From: Tethya wilhelma
Lineage: Eukaryota; Porifera; Demospongiae; Tethyida; Tethyidae
Direction of reading: 5' to 3'
Length of the DNA: 64,000 bases
NCBI GenBank assembly: GCA_964030475.1
Contig: CAXIPT010000014.1
Coordinates: forward strand, 323,596 to 387,595
Shown here: piece after piece, positions 2,972 through 59,739 of the stretch
How positions within the stretch are numbered: the first letter of the stretch is position 1
Layout: each line of letters opens with the position of its first letter
Made by a program: the position numbers and the translations under genes
The notes under the pieces: model-generated
What the model saw: the letters and a program-made list of their open reading frames with translations, nothing else
Told to the model about the DNA's origin: nothing
Database searches by the model: none

Positions 2972-3414
2972 TAAATAAAAAGTACAGTATTTTATATCGG
3001 GAGTTTTAAAGTTGCCTAGATTTTGTTTGCTGCCTTTTCGCCAGCAAACGAGTCGAAAAGGACGTACTGTGCATCAAATGAAGTCCCACTATATGGTCAA
3101 AGTTGGCTCAATGCCTTTTGTTTGTCTGGAAATCGCGTTCAAGTAAGTCAGTTTAGGAACTTGAAGGAAGGAAGGGGAGAACAAAATTGCACTGTTGTGG
3201 CTTCTCGCCAGCGCTCTCTACAGAGTGCTCTAGAAACTTTCTGCCAGTTTTCTTATCTGAAACTTTCAGGGAATGAAAGCTAAGCCTTCAAATGCATTTA
3301 ATAGCCTCTCCCAGACAGTTTGCTTACTGTATTAACCATAAGCATGAACATTTTGTATTGTGTCAATGGGACATTCGGCCCATTCCTACTATACGTACTA
3401 CCGTACGTATGATA
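2972..3414 (+). repeat. Right half of ~1 kb interspersed repeat R, split by the MULE
   Basis: Matches the right part of the complete repeat at 9341-10280 and of the copy at 50031-51040. It ends in the same hairpin (ATACGTAC, loop TACC, GTACGTAT, followed by GATA). The first nine bases duplicate the last nine of the left half-repeat at 26113-26648. No open gene is present; a short open frame here is translated repeat. Confidence 0.8.
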
Positions 3415-3476
3415 ACAAGTAAGAATCATGATATTATCAATAAGTGAATAGTGTGTTTTGATGATCTATACACACA

Positions 3477-4390
3477 GTTCCTAATAATGTGGCTGAGCTT
3501 GATATTGTAAGTGGTCTTGCTCAATGGAATGCCGGAAGTGATGGTTCATCTCAGTATGAGATACGATACAACAAAACAGATGCTTCTACGGATGTCTGTG
3601 TCAAACCACTTTAATAGAGTGTACGATGTTGACAATCACGCTCATTATACTGTTCAGGTATAAACACTATGCTACACGTCAAGTGCCACATATTATCCAC
3701 AATGTCATATATTAAATCATGTAGGTTCGTTCAAACAACGAAGATCAATGGAGTACACCAACTACAATCCAGTTCATAGCAAATTCCAATGGGCCAGTCT
3801 CCGCAATCAGTTAGTCATGATCAATATCATAATAGATTTGTTCGTCAATAATGAAATATTATTTTAACATAATTATGTATATTTCCATTGCAGCTCCAGT
3901 ACATGATCAGTCTTGTTTGTCAACTGAACTATAATTATCATAACATTCAGAATCCATCATACGCGTACTTTGAGGATCTCTCAGGCTGTTCTACAGGAAT
4001 TCAAAAATTGTTATTTACCACGATGGAGCCCATGTACTTTCAATACAAGTAACATACTGACTTACAAATAGATCACCATATACAGTGCACCAAGACGTGG
4101 AGATATATATACTAATACTGGACCAAGTGTACATCAAGAACAAATTGACTTAGATGAAGGAGAAAAGATAGTATCCATCTTGGGGGGGGGATTCTCCTGG
4201 TCCAGGTAGACTAACTCAATTCAAGTTCATTACGATGAAGCCTAATGGATCTCATCGCATGTATGGACCTTATGGAGCCAGACAAACTGCATTGGGAACA
4301 TTTGATGTGAAGAATATTAATATCATTGGGTTCTTTGGACTTCATGACCCCTTTATCTACGGCCTTGGTTTCAAGTATCCCCGAAACTAA
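3477..4390 (+). pseudogene. Decayed FN3 plus jacalin-like lectin gene
   Basis: Exon-like pieces at 3477-3658 and 3724-3811 translate to a fibronectin type III pattern (AELDIVSGLAQW, YEIRYN, then VRSNNEDQW) but reach a stop after the first piece. Pieces at about 3990-4390 read as a jacalin/ZG16-like lectin: KIVIYHDGAHVLSIQ, DLDEGEKIVSILGG, GPYGARQTALGTF, IIGFFG and GLGFKYP before a stop at 4390. Nine G residues at about 4182-4190 shift the frame; eight would keep it open. The FN3 unit may be the second FN3 of the Eph-like ectodomain at 24440-26111 if the region is circularly permuted. The jacalin call is by pattern only. Confidence 0.5.
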
Positions 4391-5011
4391 CAATTTTTTT
4401 TGTTTAGTTCAAGCTGTCAGATATAAGATTACATGAACTATATTGTGTCTTAGTGACCTGTAAGCTATGATTACACTACTTAAAATTTGAATATATAGTA
4501 ATTATATCTACAATGAATTAATTTGTTTCTTTTTCCTTTTAGTGGATACCCTGCAATGTATACTGCTTATTCTGTACATGCATGTTCATTAGATTTTGAA
4601 TTAACTGATGTTTTATATCACAATAAAAGAGAATCAATAATTCTATTAATAGATTTCTGAATCTAACGGTTACCCTGCATAATAAAGCCTATCAGGATAA
4701 CATAATTAATTTTATTAACACAAACATTTTTCAGGAGTATAAGTCACTAGAATGATTGAGCTACAATTAAAACGATACTACACTCAGGGCAGAGCCCCTT
4801 CGACTATCATAAGAGTCATGAATACTGTCCTCAAAAAAACTTTCTAATTATAAGCAATTGCTTCAGCCATTCTCTCATCTATAGCTCTTTTGAACAATCT
4901 TTTGGGAACACATACTGTACGTAGTGTACGATACTATACTGCATACCTACTGGATTACAACTGCATGGTTGGTGTTTCATTAGAATACGCATGCACACAC
5001 ACACTCACATA

Positions 5012-5100
<89 letters not shown>

Positions 5101-5195
5101 AACTTTATGAATGATGAAAGTAAACTTTGGCTACTCGTAGTAATATATCTGGAACCTTTCCTCCTCCAATCAAACTGGAACTTAAGTAAACTAAC
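4391..5195. other. Non-coding stretch downstream of POLD1 exon 11
   Basis: AT-rich sequence with a large CA/CT microsatellite and no coding pattern that I recognise. The missing 3' half of POLD1 would be expected to begin on this side, but no exon for the KETDP, SVYGF or DTDS regions of the polymerase is visible here. Confidence 0.6.
4993..5099. repeat. Compound (CA)n(CT)n microsatellite
   Basis: An interrupted CA run leads directly into about 49 bases of pure CT. Open frames across it encode only TH or SL dipeptides and are not genes. Confidence 0.95.
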
Positions 5196-13054
<7,859 letters not shown>

Positions 13055-26648: not shown

Positions 26649-29600
26649 CGCACTGTATATTTGTCCGGTACCGGATTGCAGAATTCACGGCTATTTGTCC
26701 TTGAGACTCAACTTTGACCTTTGAACTGCCAGCAGGGGGCACCATGCATGCCACGTGGTTTTAGACACTTAGAATCTTCACGATCACGGTGCCGGAGCAC
26801 GCAAATTATTATGTCATGTCGCAAAGATGGAAATAGGTGACAGCTTTGAATCATTTGAACGCTTTGAAGAAGCAATAAGGACTTTGGAGAGAAGTCAAAG
26901 TATAACTTATTACAGAAGAGACTCAAGAACCATTGAAGGCGCAAAAAGAAGAGTCAATCATGATATCAACCCAGCTCTCAAGACGGTATTATGAAGTGAA
27001 GTACACCTGTATTAAGGGTGGGAAGAAGTACAGTGGCAAGAGTAAAGGACTTAGACCCAACCAGAGGTTAGTGTGCCCCTCTATTGAGCTTTATATGACA
27101 TGTTTCTTCCATTAGAACATTTAGAGATGATTGTGGTTCATTTGTGAGAGCTCGTGCAAGTCTTTGTGGTCAGAAACTCGTGATAACAGACGTAAACTTG
27201 GAGCACAACCATGAAAGTTCCCCAGTGAGCACTGTGTGTACATGTATGCGTGTGTATGTGTGGGTGTGTGTGTAGTGCATTCTAAATGATGCACAACTTT
27301 AAAATTGTGTTGAACATGTGTATACCTCCCTGTGGATGTCTTCTTCAGGAAAGCTTTAAGCACTTGCCCAAGCAAAGAAAGGTTGATGAATCTGACCTTA
27401 GTGGGCTGCAAGACATGCTACAAACACGACCAAACAAGAAAATTCTGCAAGACCACATAATGAAGAAGACAGGAAAAGTGGTTACCCTGCGCGATCTATC
27501 GAATATGAAAGCTAAGCTGAAGCCAAAACCTTCAAACCTGGAACAGATACTTGAAGGACTACAGTCTAGTGAAGGTGAGTATATTGCGGGTTCCTAGCTA
27601 TATACTCACAGTTTATGTTCACCCATGTACAGATAAAATCGTTCGAGTCGTTACTGACTCTGAGAATATGTTGCAAGCAATCTACTATCAAGATTAGACA
27701 ATGCAAGAGTTATTTGAACTCTATCCTGAAGTACTACTTGTGGATGCAACGTATAAGCTCAACGATTTGCGAATGCCTGTTTTCCTACAACTTGTTGTTG
27801 ACGGAAATGGTGAAAGTGAGGTTGTTGCAGTATTTGTTGTTGTTGCTGAAGATGGTGTAACAATGGGTTCATTGATTGACATCTTCAAAGAGAATAATCC
27901 AGCATGGGACCGTACAAGAACGATCTTGACTGACAAAGACTTCCTTGAGAGAAGTGTGTACGGGAAAGCATTTCCTGATGCTCAACTGCAACTTTGTTTG
28001 TTTCATGTCCTGAAATCACTGAAGCGAGAAATTCATGTTGAGAAGATGGGAATAAGACTAGAGCAAAAGAATCTGTGTCTTGAGATCATTCAGAAGATCG
28101 CCTATTCCAAGAATGAGGAGGAGTACGAGGCTAATTTGGGCAAGCTCCGTGAAACCCAAATTAAGCCTGTTATCAGCTACTACATGCACTCCTGGCATGA
28201 CATTAGAAATCAATGGGTGATAGGGCTGAAACCTTCATGCAATTTCGGGAACAACACTACAAATAGAGTGGAGTCTATCAATCAGAAGCTAAAGCAAGTT
28301 ATCGAGAAATTCTTGAATCTTCAAGTGTTTTTTCATGATCTGGAGATTACGTTGCAGTGCTTGAGGAGAGAGCGTGACAGCAGATTTGCTAACATTGTGC
28401 TCAAAAGGCCTACACATCAGTTTCAAGAACAGTCCCCAGAAGCTCGTTTTTCAAATCTCCTCACACCATACGCATACCAGGTAGTAATTCAGCAGTTCGT
28501 GGCTCGTGACAAAGTGAAAATCTCTAATCCGTCTAACGCACAAATGATCACTATTTCAACATCCTCTGGCGATGTAGAAGTAACTCCTGTTCTCTGCACT
28601 TGTCACTTCGTTCGTATGAACCTGCTTCCTTGTCGGCACATCTTCGCAATGCGAGAGTCTCTAGGACTGGATTGCTACTTTGAAGAAGCTGTGTCTAGTA
28701 GGTGGCTCTTGGACCAGTACAAAGTTCATAGGCATTCCCTGGCCCCTTCCGAGTCCAATCTTGACATTGGTGTCACTGTTCAGCCCTCTCGAAGTACACT
28801 ATCCCAGGCTCAGAAATACAGGAAAGCTTTTGAGATCAGTCAAAAACTGGCAACCATGGCTAGTGAAGTATCGATGAGCAAGTTTCAATCGAGACTGGAT
28901 GTTCTGAGCACTTTAAGCAAGCTTTGGGAGAGTGGCCGGGATGGTATAGTCGTCAGCAATATCGATGAGGATGAAGAGGTTGGTTGAGAGTTTGTCCTCT
29001 ATCTGTATATTCGGTTGAAGTCGTGCATACCTGTGACCTTACACATGTGTGTACCTGATGTGACTTGCAGCATATATGTGTGCATACCTCTGACCTTATA
29101 CATGTACTTGTGTCTATGCACATGTACATGTACAATGTGTACTTTACTACTACATGTACATTGTGTCTCCAGGAGTCAGGTTCTGATGGAGAGTGTAATG
29201 ACAGAATTCAGGTGCCCCCTCCCCCAGTTCAACGTGAAGGTCCTGTAATGGACGATGACAGTGAGGGTATGGACTTGGACACACCTCAGGACCATGCTGG
29301 TACAACCTCTCGTTCAGCTGAAGAAATGGACACAGAAACACACACAGAGGACACAGGACAACGGTCAGAAGCTGATCAGGATCCAGGGCAAACCCCAGAT
29401 AGTGGAGAAGACGCATCCACACATCATATGGACGTGCAAAGTAGTCAGGTATGTGCTGAAACTCTCAGTGACCATAGTAAGTATTGATAATCTGATTCTT
29501 TTAGCTCTCTCAAGTGAAGTTACCACCTCGAATGAAGCAGAAAGGTAGACCAAAGGGCTCTGGACAAACTGTGATCGGTCTTGGTAAAAAGCGTTCAAAA

Positions 29601-51419: not shown

Positions 51420-51428
51420 CTGTACGAC
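51420..51428 (+). repeat. Left 9-bp target-site duplication of the giant element
   Basis: CTGTACGAC, identical to 59731-59739. It directly abuts the GGTC start of the element. Nine bases fits MULE-type integration. Confidence 0.85.
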
Positions 51429-52087
51429 GGTCAGATAGATCTTTACGTAAAACTACAGAAATTGCCATGATTAACTCATGGGAAGATTTTACGTGACCTG
51501 TCCCATGGGTTAATCATGGGGGAGTTTTACGTCACTTCTACCCTGATTCAATCATGGCATGATTTTACGTAACATGGAAAACATTACCACAATTGTATAT
51601 GGTGCAATATTTATATGGGAAGATTTTACGTCAGTACTTTGACCTCACGTAAAAGCTCCCCATATAATATAGCTATCTGTACTCAAACATGTGGGGATGC
51701 TTTAGTCGAGAACTTTGACCTCACGTAAAATCTCCCCATATAATATCCCTGGCAACTAATGTGGCCACATTATAAGAAACAATAGATTCACTCCAAAGAA
51801 GTGTCCTTTGACCTCACGTAAAATCTCCCCATGTAACATCCCTGGCAACTAATGTGGCCACATTATAAGAAAAAATAGATTCACTCCAAAGAAGTGTCCT
51901 TTGACCTCACGTAAAATCTCCCCATGTAACATCCCTGGCAACTAGGGTGGCCACATTATAAGAAAAAATAGATTCACTCCAAAGAAGTGTCCTTTGACTT
52001 CATGTGACTGAAATCTTCCATTAAATCAAAACTGGTTAGATCAGTGTGAGACCTGTTTAAGGGAGAACTTTAAAAACTCTTCAGGTA
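51429..52087 (+). repeat. Left terminal inverted repeat with 93-bp subterminal units
   Basis: The outer part has five or more ACGTAAAA/TTTTACGT motifs at irregular spacing. Three tandem 93-base units begin at 51714, 51807 and 51900, each TTTGACCTCACGTAAAATCT then CCTGGCAACTA and GTGGCCACATTATAAGAA. A partial fourth starts at 51993. The inner limit (TCAGGTA near 52087) is where similarity to the right repeat ends. Confidence 0.85.
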
Positions 52088-52710
52088 GCTAGCTATATGC
52101 CTTCTAAACAACAACTGGGATGATTTTATATGTGAACTTTATTCTCTCATCAGCTCTCTCCTCTCATCACAACTTGATGATTCATATCTATGTGGGGAAT
52201 GGGACGGTCACCACCAATCCAATCAAAGATCTGCAACATCAGTGGCACGGGCCAGTGGCCAGTCTCTTTGCCATTCTACGTCAGAAACCGTCTTCACATC
52301 ACCTATAAACACTGATCATATTAAATATTATTATTATTACATCAACAGTGATAGCTGTGAACACTGACCACAAGCAACATATAAAATTAAAACTATAGTG
52401 ATAATTATTCTAAATAGATGTACTGTAGGTATATAAATGATGACAATACCTGCATGAGTCATGGTCATCGAGTATCAGGTCTCTAGGCCATTGGCAGACT
52501 GAGTGCATTGACACGTACACTCCAAGAGTGTCCAAGTGGCGATGTAATTACAAGACTTTGACCTTTTGCACATCATTCAGCTCCACCCTTCTAACTAGCT
52601 GCTAATCAGGTATTGTCTTTCTAATCCATGAAGCTGATTGGTTAGTTCTTGCAGAAGACGCGGGATATTCTCAAGTAGATTTGTAACTGCAAGAGACTAT
52701 ACTGTTGATC
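52088..52710 (+). promoter_or_regulatory. Leader region between left inverted repeat and first exon
   Basis: About 620 bases without an apparent exon. It should contain the element's promoter; no specific core promoter motif is visible. A short frame at 52120-52308 has no recognisable domain. Confidence 0.3.
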
Positions 52711-53472
52711 ATGGCTATTTCCAAGTCTACTAGTACAGTGCTCGTTATTTCTATCACAATTTCTCTCTGGTGCACTGCTTCTGGATTGTCTACATGTTCT
52801 TTTCAGAACAGTTTGTTGTGGACAGGGACAAGTACAGCCAACTGGAGTAATGTTGCTCTACCACACTGCTGCAGCCAAGCAAACAGCCTGGTTTCAGCAA
52901 CACCACAGATCAGATTCCAACTGCCACCACTTCAAACGAAGGAAACAGAGTTTATTGACCATATCAAAATTTCTTCCATGAATTCGAAGGATATTTTGAT
53001 GGACCCTCATATGGCATGCTACATAGGAAGCAGGAGAACTGATTTCTATTCCCCTGTCCCCAACATCTCGAAATCAAGTCTTTGCACTAAAACTTTATTT
53101 GCTAAATGTCGGACTCTGTTAACCATTCCAATTTGTATAGTGGTAGCTTCGATCGTCACTATGTTGTTTGCCTGGTATGTGTGTTCAATGCTCACGATTG
53201 GCACCTACCTGATCATGTCAACCATCTGTGAGTCTCCCAAAATGTCACTTTATCCTCTCTTTGAAACTTTCACTAAGAAATTGCAGGTGTTGAAAGACCA
53301 TAACCATGGTAGGTTAATTAGTTTGTGGTTTTAGCATGACATTGTGGTTTTGAAATCATGCCCTTATACAAATGATTATTCATAGTAGCTGATTATCAAC
53401 CTATAGGATCAAACCCTTCCATGGTTTTCAAAATACTAAAGTGTTTCCTATGGAAAATGATGTCCAACAAAG
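52711..53472 (+). CDS. Signal-peptide/transmembrane exons of the giant element
   Basis: Exon A 52711-53308 starts at an ATG with a signal peptide (MAISKSTSTVLVISITISLW). It continues through a Cys-containing ectodomain of about 120 residues with NWSN and NIS sequons, then a long hydrophobic segment (LTIPICIVVASIVTMLFAWY). It ends before GTAGGT. Exon B 53407-53472 has AG and GT borders. Both exons end in phase 1 and fit the start of the ubiquitin-like segment at 53560, so a spliced protein joining a membrane anchor to the helicase is possible. It could equally be a separate gene or captured cargo. No homology recognised. Confidence 0.5.
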
Positions 53473-53559
53473 GTATATAAAGCGATAATCAATAGCAGAA
53501 TCTGTTTTATCATGTTCATTGCTCTATTATGATTAAATTTTTTTGTCTTCACATATTAG

Positions 53560-55350
53560 ACAAATATGATAAGAGGAAGCACCTTTTCATCCACTTTCCT
53601 TCTGGTCAAATTCTTAACGTTTCCTTTGAAAAGTTTAATGGGATTGATCCACTCCAACTCCTCAAGTGTTTTGTTGAAAGTAAAACAGGTATATCCAGCA
53701 AAGTGATCAAATTTCAATGCAACAACAAATGCATTCAAACTGGTGATGATGTATCTTCCTTGCCTTTACATGCTAATATTCATCTAAGATTTGAATTACC
53801 TGGTGGCCAAAATTGTGATGTATGTTTTGCATATGCCTCCTTCCATTGCCAAGAGTGTGAACAATATTTCTGTGAAGAATGCTGTAAACGAGTTCATAAT
53901 CACCCAAAACGTACAAGCCACAACCCTACTCTTATGGATGCAAACCAGAGTACCAAGAGTGATGACAATGCCTTCAGCAGTTCTCATCCCAGTAACAGTA
54001 GTGGGGCTAGCATTAGTTGTACTCAATCTGCAGCCGATGATGATTCATTTTGCCCTCAGTTTGATATATCCTTTCAGGATGCTATGTTAGTTGCAACATT
54101 AGCTGAGAAATTTGGCTTGACTGGATTTAAAAGTTTCCAAAAAAAAATCATCGATGCCACTCTAGATGGACGAGATACCTTAGTCATTCATCCAACAGGA
54201 AGTGGTAAAAGCTTATGCTTCCAGTTTCCACCTGTGTTTCAAGACAAAAAGGTGTTTGTTATCACACCAACTATTAGCTTGATGCCGAGACCAAGTAGAA
54301 AATTTGCAACAATTAGGTATCAACAGCACATTTTTAGGATCTGCACAGTTGGATAAGCAAGCTGAAATCAATGCATTAGATCCAGAAAGTGATGTTCGCA
54401 TTATTTTCATAACACCTGAGTGGATTTCTAAACCTGATAAATTGCACAAAGTGCAAGAATTAGCCACTGCTGGTAAGCTATCACTGTTAGCAATAGATGA
54501 AGCTCATTTAGTATCAGAATGGTCAGATTTTCGAAAGGCATACCTTACTCTTCAAGATCTTCATATTCATTTTCGAAATACACCAATTATGGCTCTTACC
54601 GCAACGGCAACCCCAAAAATCGAGGAAGATATCAAAAAGTTGCTTCGTAATCCCTTAGTGAGTAAAGCATCTATTAATCGACCAAATATTTTTTTGTCTG
54701 CACTTGAAGTGGAAACACATCCTTCTAGTGATTTCTTTCACACATTTGCTAATCATGTTGCTGACATCAGCAATTCTGAGCCTACTATTGTTTACACAGA
54801 TTTTATTGCAGACATAGGTTTGATTGTAAGTTCTCTAGCTGACTTAGATGTAGAAGCAGTTGGTTATTATGGTGAAATGGATCCTAGAGAAAGACAGGAA
54901 TCATATCAGAGATGGAAGTCAGGTGAAGTTAACATCATGGTTGCCACAAAAGCTTTTGGCATGGGGATAAACAAAAGCAATATTCGTCATGTAATACGAA
55001 ATGGTGTACCAGAGAGCATGATATCTTGGACCCAAGAATTTGGTAGGGCTGGTAGAGATGGACAGCAGTCCACTGCAACTATCTTATACCGAAAAAGTGA
55101 TGTGAAACATGCTGATGCTTGGGTTTGGAATAATATTAGAGACAGGAACAAGTGTGAACGAATCTTAAATGACTTTTCTAGATCATGGAGATTTGTTGAA
55201 GCACATTTAGCTGGTTACTGCAGGAGAAAATTGCTGGTGGAAATGTTTGGTGAATCAGACGAGCCTACATTTAATAGTAACTGTTGTGATGTCTGCAATG
55301 GTTGCAAGCGTGAGAATTTTCATCATTTTAACGAAGAACTTAGAATTCTA
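53560..55350 (+). CDS. Ubiquitin-like, B-box and RecQ-type DEAH helicase part (one-base frameshift)
   Basis: Begins after TATTAG with a ubiquitin-like segment of about 85 residues ending NIHLRFELPGG, compare the LRLRGG end of ubiquitin. A B-box-like zinc finger follows (CDVCFAYASFHCQECEQYFC and CC..VHNH), then a Ser-rich linker. The RecQ core has motif 0 (FGLTGFKSFQKKII), Walker A (HPTGSGKS), DEAH (AIDEAHLVSEW), ALTATATP, VATKAFGMGINK and the arginine finger region QEFGRAGRDGQ. A zinc-binding Cys cluster closes it (GYCRRK, CCDVCNGC). One extra C at 54285-54286 shifts the frame after ISLM; reading continues in frame +1 from QQLGINSTFLG. Coding then reaches EELRIL, where the nested MITE begins. 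RecQ helicases unwind DNA 3' to 5'; a role in transposition intermediates is inferred. Confidence 0.85.
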
Positions 55351-56045
55351 CTCAGGACAGTTAAGGACTGGGTCCTGCTAATTAAGTGGTAAAATTATGC
55401 AAGATAGTTATATTTTCTAAACTATGGGTCATACAACTGTCAAAACACATGTATAGATTTACACACTTACCCTAAACATGCTTATAAAATCTGCAGGTCA
55501 TGTGACTAATACTTTATGAATAATTTGAAATTTTCAATTTCTCATGAATAATTAATAATGCGGACGGTTTTTAAGGTTGCCATGGCAACCAAATTTTGTC
55601 ACAAGATTCGTTAAACTGTGGGGTATCCTGATCTGCCCGGTTTTTGGTTATAATATTTATCGTGGTCGAGATAGAGCCAATAAAGTGTCTTCGGCTGGTG
55701 TGCTTTATTTAGAAAATGAGTCGTAATTTTATGCAGCTGGAGTGTTTGCTCAAAAACCGGGCAGTTCATGGTAGCCCATCATGAGACGATTTCAGTGACA
55801 AAATTTGGTTGCCATAGCAACAGTAGAAACCATCCGCCTAATTAATTATTCATGAGAAGCTAATTATGCAAAAACAACAGGTCATGTGACAAAATTAATT
55901 ATATCTACATACTCTAATTAAAAAATTCTATCTATATTTTAATTTCTATTGTTTTATCTTATATATTATTAAAGTTATACAACTTTCGAATAATGTGTAC
56001 CTAATTAAGGTAAACTGCATGGACCCAGTCCTTAATTCACCTGAG
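55351..56045. mobile_element. 695-bp foldback MITE nested in the helicase gene, TA target
   Basis: The ends read CTCAGG..A.TTAAGGACTGGGTCC inverted, with TA on both sides (55349-55350 and 56046-56047). Further inward, TTGCCATGGCAACCAAATTT and its inverse also pair. Deleting it together with one TA joins EELRIL to FDAIHQIGTKGEVKI in one frame, which shows it is an insertion and not an intron. A stop is reached 42 bases inside it. Confidence 0.9.
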
Positions 56046-58618
56046 TATTTGATGCAATTCATCAAATAGGTACAAAAGGTGAAGTAAAGATAGCTGAGTG
56101 GATACGAGGATCAAATGTTTCATGGACGGATGCGTATAACAAAAAATCTATTTCATATGGCAATAGTAGAGGCCACACGTTAGACCAATGGAGGCTTTTT
56201 TTGCACCAATGCCACGTGCTTGGTTTGATTAACTACAGGTTGAAGTCTATGATAAAAGCAAATGGTCATTATGCGGTCATGGGGGTTTACTCTCCTATTG
56301 GGGATAACTGTGAATGCTATCTGAAGAATGAAGCCAATTTAATGTTACCCCCCATGAAGCATTGCATTAGACTTGATGATGTTTCAAGGCGTACAGTTGA
56401 ACCGAGCAGTTCGAATTCAGATTCACAGCATACATTGTTAAATGGTTCAGGAAAGCGAAACAGAATTGGCAAAGGATCAAACATACTCACTGTAATTCGA
56501 AAAATGTTAACTGATAAGGAGAACTGGAAAACAATTACAAACAAAAGTAATTACCATTTCCTTGGAGTATTTTCAGAGCCTACTAGCCAGCAGCTATACT
56601 ATGTACCTGATTTCACATCACTCGAACAAGCAAGTGCTTGTAAGCACTTTTTGTGGAATGACATTCAATTGTCAAAAGGTAAATTAAACAAAGATAGACT
56701 AATTGAGGTAGAAATTGGTACTACCAAAGAGCATGTGTTTTACAGATCTGCCAGTTGTACAGGAGTAAAAATGTGCCCAGTTAAAGGATGTAACTATGTA
56801 GCGCCCATCAGAGAAAGAAGAAACTGTAAGGAGCATAATAATGAAACACTGATAAAGTCTGGTAATTGCCCAGTTGAGTTTGTTTACATCTACCCACAAG
56901 ATTATGAAAATGATAAGAGGAGATGGATTGGTGGTATTGTTCATAACCAAAAGGTTAACACGGACAACTTACATACCCACAAACTACATGGTGCATTCAA
57001 GATTTGCAATCTCGTTCAAGACAAAATAACTGAAGCTGTGCAGGCAAATGTAGGTCTTACTCCAACAGATATCTCACAAGGTAAAGGGATTGGTTTCATT
57101 CCATCAGCTGTTGACACAGCAAGTGCACATCTTGGACGAATCTCAAGAGAAGTTGCTAAAACGAAAGGTGTCATGAACAAAGACACAACAAATTGGTCAC
57201 CATGCTTGTTTGATAGTGTGGCAGACCAAATAGATGAAAATGATAACAAAGTAAGCAATGATAAAATGATGCAACAAAAATACAATGCCTATGGCAGGCC
57301 TTACATTGTATCTGCAGGAATGGAAAATGGCACAAAGTATGCCTTGGCCATGTCACCATTGATGACAAAAATGTTATCAACAGCAGAATTCATTCAGACT
57401 GATATCACGTATAATGACAACCCAAGATACCCTTACTTGTTTAATGCAGCTGTTTTCAATGACGTAACAATGGAATGGATGGTGGTTGCTAGAATGTGGG
57501 TAGATAATCAGAGCGAGGATGCCTACAAACTAGCATTCAAAAAAATGTTTGGCCACTGCACTGATATTCACCATAATCTTGAATTGGGTACAACACTCAA
57601 AGCAATAGTTGTTGATTGGAGTGATGCTCAAATAAATGGACTTAAATCTGCAATTGGAAGAGATCTGGCAACATCCCTTCTTAAAGGGTGCAAAGTACAT
57701 TGGCTGCGTTCTTGCCAAAGAGTGGCTGACAAAGTGTCAATAAGTGCAGCAAACAAGGACTTGGAAAAGGCAATTTTTATGAAAATTGCTAAAAAAATCC
57801 AATCATTGTCAAGTGCCGTGGAAATAATTGCATGTTTTGAAACATTATGTGACGTACGTACAGTAACACAACTCCTGCAAAAATTACCTGACATATGTTC
57901 AAAACAAGAAGCAGAAGAAATAGATTCCTTGAAAGATTGGTCCTGTGCCAAGAGTTGGGCCCAGTGGTGGTCTCGGAGCACACACTTAAAAATGCTATCA
58001 CAAGCATTTACAGAAATGGAAGGTGATATATGGGTAAAGAGTCCCAAGACAACTAATGCAGTGGAGAGAAAAAACAGAGATTGCAAATCTGACGCAGTTT
58101 CAATTAAGCAGCTAATGACTGAAGCCTACAAATTAGATAAAGTGGTGTGCTTCAAACATATCACAGCAGAGGGAGGAAGCAGTATAACCTACAGGTCACG
58201 TACAGTAGAAGCCCGAGCTGCACAGGCCAAGTCTAGACAGAAAAATAGAGCCTCGCACTGGGATCCTGATGATGACATTGAGTTTGGTCCACCAGACAAA
58301 ACTACGAATTTCAATAAGTCTTCCAGTGGTAGCAAGAGGTCTAAAAAAACACCCAAAGGAGCTCCTCCTGCAAAAAAACGCTTGATACAAGTAGAAAATA
58401 AAAAAATAGAATTTGTTCCTAACAAACACCCAGAATTGATTGGGAAAATGGTCAGAATGAGATTCATCACAGAATCTGACAAATCTGACTATCAATGGTT
58501 TAAAGGAGTAATCTCATCATATGATGGAATCTCTCAGAAATATGGTATATACTTTCCCTCTGATGGAGAAACAGTTTTTGCAAAGCTTGATGATGAAGAT
58601 CTTGAGTTAATTGACTAA
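56046..58618 (+). CDS. RQC-like region fused to MULE-like DDE transposase with Tudor-like tail
   Basis: Open from the MITE edge to the stop at 58616-58618, about 857 residues, continuing the helicase frame. The first 100 residues (GTKGEVKIAEWIRGS, QCHVLGLINYRLKSM) resemble the winged-helix RQC region that follows RecQ cores. A zinc-binding segment follows (CTGVKMCPVKGCNY, CKEHNN, NCPVEF). The MULE-like core has Asp in FIQTDITYNDN, Asp in AIVVDWSDAQINGLK, CKVHW in the CxxH position and Glu in TTNAVERKNRDCK. A basic linker (KRSKKTPKG) leads to a Tudor-like tail (GKMVRMRF, YQWFKGVISSYD, YGIYFPSDGE). No lesion is seen in this half. This is the catalytic protein for movement of the element; the fused order helicase-transposase is directly visible in the frame. 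Confidence 0.85.
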
Positions 58619-58984
58619 ACTGCTAGTAAACAAGAAACATTATCACAAACTATTCTTGGAGGAACGTAATAATAGTCACTGTCATTGTAGAAATAGCTGA
58701 AACATCGAAGTGATTCTCTCTTGATTAAAAATATTTCTGATCCTTAAATAATATTATTGTCACTGAGTGTGTGAGTAATTGTTATTCGTGGTTTCATGCC
58801 TCATATCATAATCATCATTATTCCTTAATCATTGTTATTATAATTATTAATCATTATCATAATAATATCATTGATATTTAATCAGTTATGCCCTCCTCAT
58901 CATAGCCATAAGGGGATGTAGTTATACTGCAGGTAAACTTAAATTTTGCATAGAAATCCCCCCTCCCCAGTTGTTTTTAGACAT
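58619..58984. other. 3' flank of the transposase gene inside the element
   Basis: AT-rich, with TCATTATTATAATTATTA-like runs; no gene. Probably contains the 3' UTR and poly(A) signal. Confidence 0.5.
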
Positions 58985-59730
58985 ACCTGGAGAGTTTTAA
59001 ATTACGCAAGGTCAAAGTTCTCACTTAAACAGGTCTCACAATCTAACCTGTGTTGATTTAATGGGGAGATATTACATGAGGTCAGAGGACACTTTTTTGG
59101 AGTTGCTTATAATGTGGCCACCTTAGTTGCCAGCGATATTACATGGGGAGATTTTACGTGAGGTCAAAGGACACTTCTTTGGAATGAATCTATTTTTTCT
59201 TATAATGTGGCAACCCTAGTTGCCAGGGATGTTACATGGGGAGATTTTACGTGAGGTCAAAGGACACTTCTTTGGAGTGAATCTATTTTTTCTTATAATG
59301 TGGCCACATTAGTTGCCAGGGATGTTACATGGGGAGATTTTACGTGAGGTCAAAGGACACTTCTTTGGAGTGAATCTATTGTTTCTTATAATGTGGCCAC
59401 ATTAGTTGCCAGGGATATTATATGGGGAGATTTTACGTGAGGTCAAAGTTCTCGACTAAAGCATCCCCACATGTTTGAGTACAGATAACTATATTATATG
59501 GGGAGCTTTTACGTGAGGTCAAAGTACTGACGTAAAATCTTCCCATATAAATATTGCACCATACAATTGTGGTAATGTTTTCCATGTTACGTAAAATCAT
59601 GCCATGATTGAATCAGGGTAGAAGTGACGTAAAACTCCCCCATGATTAACCCATGGGACAGGTCACGTAAAATCTTCCCATGAGTTAATCATGGAAATTT
59701 CTTTAATTTTACGTAAAAAACTGTAGGACC
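58985..59730 (-). repeat. Right terminal inverted repeat with four 93-bp units
   Basis: Inverse of the left repeat. The GTGAGGTCAAAGGACACTTC landmark recurs at about 59162, 59254, 59347 and 59440, with a shortened unit before 59162. One more unit than on the left accounts for most of the length difference. Confidence 0.85.
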
Positions 59731-59739
59731 CTGTACGAC
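59731..59739 (+). repeat. Right 9-bp target-site duplication of the giant element
   Basis: CTGTACGAC, identical to 51420-51428. Confidence 0.85.

Follow-up and report, generated by a model that had tools for sequence, protein, structure and literature searches.

A 64,000-nucleotide stretch of the genome of the demosponge Tethya wilhelma (C14:323596-387595 of a 124.6-Mb assembly; hereafter, the window) contains an element of 8302 bp that is bounded by a 9-bp target-site duplication. The assembly contains Wnt genes that exceed the cut-off, which marks the host as an animal. The element is probably a degenerate copy of a formerly autonomous transposon of the Mutator-like element (MULE)/IS256 class, with Foldback-type arms and a single gene in which a RecQ helicase is fused to a DDE transposase. 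A preliminary description of the window had recognized a MULE-like transposon and its 9-bp duplication, an assignment that is supported here.

Borders and copies of the element

The sequence CTGTACGAC lies directly to the left (51420-51428) and to the right (59731-59739) of the element and occurs nowhere else on either strand of the window. Chance identity of random pairs of 9-mers in the window is rare (8/200,000). Read inward, both ends of the element start with GGTC and have TTTACGTAAAA in common. The ends form a Foldback-like left inverted repeat of 660 bp (51429-52088, forward strand) and a right inverted repeat of 745 bp (58986-59730, reverse strand); these arms are identical at 630 of 652 aligned columns (96.6%), and the alignment places extra repeat sequence in the right arm. 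Like the inverted arms of Foldback elements, both contain tandem subrepeats, which are 38 bp (51465-51570) and 93 bp (51713-52002) long in the left arm and 93 bp (59106-59448) and 38 bp (59589-59694) long in the right arm.

Both 400-bp flanks of the element derive from a dispersed repeat, with at least 58 matches to the left flank and at least 43 to the right flank in the assembly. Among 37 left and 32 right matches, 26 pairs abut exactly and 29 lie within 60 bp of each other. At these empty sites, which are paralogous copies of the dispersed repeat rather than alleles, the left-flank match includes the whole 9-bp target up to its final base, where the right-flank match directly adjoins it. 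Because of the 26 paralogous empty sites, the borders and the 9-bp duplication are supported independently of the inverted repeats.

A search of the genome with the first 272 bp of the element (from 51429) returned at least 59 matching stretches. A search for further copies with identical ends had been proposed. The copies on contigs C4, C9, and C45 and a sister element on C181 have GGTC at both ends, and a copy on C2 has one GGTC end and a decayed opposite end. The expectation of 9-bp duplications at other loci held in part. Among the six copies read at both ends, those in the window, on C4 (3.6 kb), and on C9 (0.6 kb) have a perfect duplication, whereas those on C45, C2, and C181 have none. 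One flank of the C45 copy begins with N, and the flanks of the sister element, rechecked at its GGTC borders, agree at 5 of 9 bases.

A single RecQ-transposase gene

The gene within the element lies on the forward strand in three pieces, which align in order and in three frames along a homologous protein of 1418 amino acids (P0063; 60% identity over the transposase part). The first piece (53577-54284; P0063 residues 11-217) matches the ubiquitin-like/B-box region found in relatives and covers the beginning of the helicase core, including the Walker A motif TGSGKS. The second piece (54208-55365; residues 192-580), in a different frame, contains the remaining RecQ core with DEAH, GRAGRD, and the RecQ zinc-binding part, and the third (56051-58615; residues 577-1418) comprises the RQC region, a Cys/His-rich region, the DDE transposase, and a Tudor-like end. 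The helicase in the window scores 237.5 bits with TIGR00614, vs. a cut-off of 219.8.

A frameshift near 54285 accounts for the first change of frame. The gene is also interrupted by a nested repeat (55361-56035) that has 13-bp inverted ends and is flanked on either side by TTAA. There are at least 14 other full-length copies of this repeat with 93-98% identity, and the reading frame is disturbed beside the insertion. Because these lesions break the gene, the window element is most likely a decayed, inactive copy; its description as a complete transposon is supported, with the correction that this copy is broken. The helicase and the transposase that had been placed inside the element are both present, as pieces of one fused gene and not as separate units. 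A two-gene arrangement was rejected because each stop-free homologue forms one protein and because P0063 maps along the element in order.

Eleven stop-free homologues were compared, each of which reads through as one protein of 1145-1430 amino acids (P0045 and P0069 begin without methionine, and P0007 ends early). RecQ is N-terminal to the transposase and the helicase motifs are retained in all 11, with divergence that reaches 42% identity in the RecQ part and 35% in the transposase. A ubiquitin-like/B-box region is found in four of them and a Tudor-like tail in seven. Pfam matches among 15 homologue rows include Helicase_C (14), DEAD (13), RQC (9), and the ubiquitin family (1). At E<=2, 19 of 41 member rows match RecQ_Zn_bind and 13 match RQC, and many of the rows do not include that region; RQC exceeds the Pfam cut-off in P0022 and P0021. 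In a protein search, members of the fused family score down to 365 bits, and WRN helicases follow from 224 bits. The 33 proteins listed by a search with the transposase-only alignment include no named relative without RecQ.

The two parts of the fused protein have diverged together. For the 11 fused proteins that remain when three partial sequences (P0006, P0013, and P0030) are removed from the 14 homologues of alignment A1, RecQ and transposase distances correlate at 0.971, a value reached by none of 5000 permutations, and FastTree gives an identical unrooted topology for both parts, with some branches weakly supported. Linkage of RecQ to the transposase within the Tethya genome, which the preliminary description had proposed to examine, is present at 11 of 32 transposase clusters (same strand, up to 5 kb upstream) and absent at the other 21. 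At one locus on C6 (L054, locus positions 2988-5236; first 828 bases of the locus read as N), a transposase relative in exon-like pieces with no RecQ match is followed by an open reading frame (ORF) that matches the Ulp1 protease below the threshold (18.8 vs. 20.7 bits). This arrangement suggests that accessory modules may have been exchanged.

RecQ and transposase pieces of the fused family also occur less than 80 kb from contig ends (C2:38-65 kb, C3:6-24 kb, C15:42-77 kb, and C26:0-3 kb). Several RecQ pieces lie within 50 kb at C4:6529663-6577150; one locus of this cluster (L022) has 49% identity to a putative SGS1 of Blattamonas.

Domains and class of the transposase

The DDE catalytic core (57401-58066, forward strand) comprises D401 (57401), D472 (57614), a CxxH motif at residues 497-500 (57689), and E622 (58064) of an 805-amino-acid ORF. 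D401 and D472 are invariant in alignment A1. The patterns GCx[VI]H and TN[AG]VER are present in all 11 fused homologues and that of the first D in 10 (P0064 aligns as DVTYD); in P0063 the pattern of the second D is matched elsewhere, and the alignment reads DWSDAQ at that position. The alignment also shows a conserved Cys/His region (56756-56980, forward strand; C186, C192, C197, C209, H212, C223, H258, and H260), a candidate DNA-binding zinc domain; FLYWCH is not among the 25 of 36 Pfam families shown for members. At the C-terminus, a Tudor-like domain (residues 742-805; 58424-58615, forward strand) matches Spindlin1.

The class assignment is based on a DDE triad with a C/DxxH motif, an RNase H fold with a helical insertion like that of IS256 transposases, and a target duplication of about 9 bp, which is perfect in three of six copies and accompanied by 26 empty sites. 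The best fold match of the transposase is ISCth4, of the IS256 family. Several results weigh against this assignment and against the wider interpretation of the element. Foldseek returned nothing from the PDB at E 0.001 or better, with foamy-virus integrase in the top rows. Only weak matches were obtained to PF10551 (MULE; 7 of 41 members, best E 0.01) and PF00872 (Transposase_mut; 5 of 41, best E 0.0021), and the bit scores shown fall below the Pfam cut-off; the label "MULE-like" is used because the cut-off of neither family is reached. With hhalign, two single MULE ORFs from the same genome score in the range of 10 shuffles, and an alignment of four such ORFs scores above the shuffles over 375-549 but at about 1% probability, which is not significant. 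In addition, a matching duplication is lacking in half of the six copies, many homologues have neither the N-terminal nor the Tudor-like part, and 21 of 32 transposase clusters have no RecQ match up to 5 kb upstream. Many, but not all, of these 21 clusters are short.

A viral or phage origin was considered and rejected, as no relative was found in a viral-contig scan with P0001 or in one phage search. Two matches in a viral fold library have E 0.001 or better: bracovirus protein O92526 (E 4.7e-13), which may be a Phantom element, and one other of low probability (E 9.0e-4, probability 0.23).

Other ORFs of the window

Upstream of the fused gene and inside the element, an ORF of 209 amino acids (52705-53334) matches no Pfam family and had no match in the seven related loci tried. 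Two very similar ORFs outside the element (284-1720 and 27701-28987) have MULE and ZSWIM1-3 RNaseH-like domains over the cut-off and belong to ordinary MULEs. On the reverse strand, an ORF at 12136-12861 matches the N-terminal domain of the DNA polymerase delta/zeta catalytic subunit.

Possible mechanism and alternative explanations

The intact enzyme would have consisted of a RecQ helicase with zinc and RQC domains, followed by a DDE transposase with a CxxH motif and helical insertion. The transposase would bind the repeated ends, cut them, and join them to target DNA with a 9-bp stagger. The tethered RecQ would act on the same DNA during transposition or its repair, most likely by opening or resolving either the foldback ends, which are prone to form hairpins, or a branched intermediate. 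The Tudor-like and ubiquitin-like/B-box parts, where present, may determine stability or contact with chromatin. Of the steps in this scheme, the one assigned to the helicase is the weakest. A more far-reaching proposal, which we regard as speculative and somewhat doubtful, is that strand opening and replication of Foldback elements are driven by the RecQ motor, in a copy-out/paste-in manner like that of IS256; Academ, Kolobok, and MULE-like elements would then have recruited RecQ independently because hairpin-prone ends or replicative intermediates need it. It is unlikely that the main function of the helicase and of the ubiquitin-like, B-box, and Tudor-like parts is to counter host silencing or to choose target chromatin instead of processing ends, as many homologues with both RecQ and the transposase lack these parts.

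The genome of Tethya also contains 51 clusters of DUF6589 matches, which we take to be Academ-like. RecQ lies within 5 kb on the opposite strand at 15 of these (e.g., C1:8589742-8591240, C9:4077640-4079222, and C109:37091-38426) and on the same strand at two; the opposite-strand loci seem to represent a second, distinct group of transposons with RecQ. WRN/SGS1-type proteins give the highest scores for four RecQ fragments taken from three of the DUF6589-linked loci, in one case by a narrow margin, and a RecQ piece linked to a transposase on C21 scores best with the fused family, which suggests separate acquisitions of RecQ by the two groups.

These clusters count in favor of a rival explanation, in which the window element is itself an Academ transposon of the AcademH type. 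According to the available parts of the published descriptions, Academ transposons carry RecQ (PMC3627910) and the duplications of AcademH measure 9 or 10 bp (PMC10045372). This identity nevertheless seems improbable, given the IS256-family fold match, the absence of DUF6589 among the 25 of 36 Pfam families shown for the 41 members, the hhalign scores of two DUF6589 ORFs within the shuffle range, and the affinity of the DUF6589-linked RecQ fragments to WRN/SGS1-type proteins. It is likewise improbable that RecQ was taken up from a host as mere cargo and plays no role in transposition: MULEs are known to acquire host gene fragments (PMC6446971, available in part), and the short copies on C4 and C9 share ends and duplications without the gene, yet the fused frame and the helicase motifs are kept in all 11 homologues despite their divergence, and the trees of the two parts are congruent. 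A transposase joined covalently to RecQ would provide a single-protein test of why DDE transposons repeatedly acquire RecQ and of whether unwinding is a necessary step for Foldback and MULE elements. In some members of the family, the transposase further incorporates a Tudor-like reader and ubiquitin-like/B-box modules.

Comparison with known transposons

Kolobok elements have a TTAA target duplication. KolobokH resembles the window element as a DDE transposon with its own RecQ; in the portion of its description available, it is reported solely from fungi and encodes RecQ downstream of the transposase (PMC9587614), unlike the N-terminal RecQ and 9-bp duplication of the fused family. Academ and AcademH are likewise RecQ-encoding DDE transposons, with AcademH duplications of similar length, but their transposase has no detectable kinship to that of the window element in the tests made. 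The presumed Academ-like relatives in Tethya differ in having RecQ as a separate opposite-strand gene. The preliminary description could name no element that brings its own RecQ; the linkage is real, and Academ and KolobokH are precedents on DDE transposons. A fusion of RecQ to a MULE-like transposase was found in no publication searched, and no RecQ was described in a MULE or MuDR element in that literature, to which Repbase and the AcademH paper did not belong. The term "helicase" does not occur in the available text of two MULE surveys (PMC6446971, PMC13359780).

The proposal of a distinct giant MULE lineage is retained as to a distinct lineage, which includes the sister element, and dropped as to size, since 8.3 kb is within the 1.4-10.0 kb reported for arthropod MULEs in the accessible part of one survey (PMC13359780). 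Tm1 of root-knot nematodes, a Foldback/Phantom MULE, has composite inverted ends, internal repeats, and 9-bp duplications like those of the window element (PMC3169594); it differs in its FLYWCH and MULE domains, and RecQ is unmentioned in the available part of that paper, in which no search for RecQ was made. With MULE/MuDR elements and IS256 (ISCth4), the window element shares the DDE triad with CxxH, the helical insertion, the 9-bp duplication, and the long inverted ends. It differs from them in a sequence too distant for the Pfam cut-offs, in the Tudor-like and ubiquitin-like/B-box parts of some family members, and in the RecQ helicase fused to the N-terminal side of its transposase.
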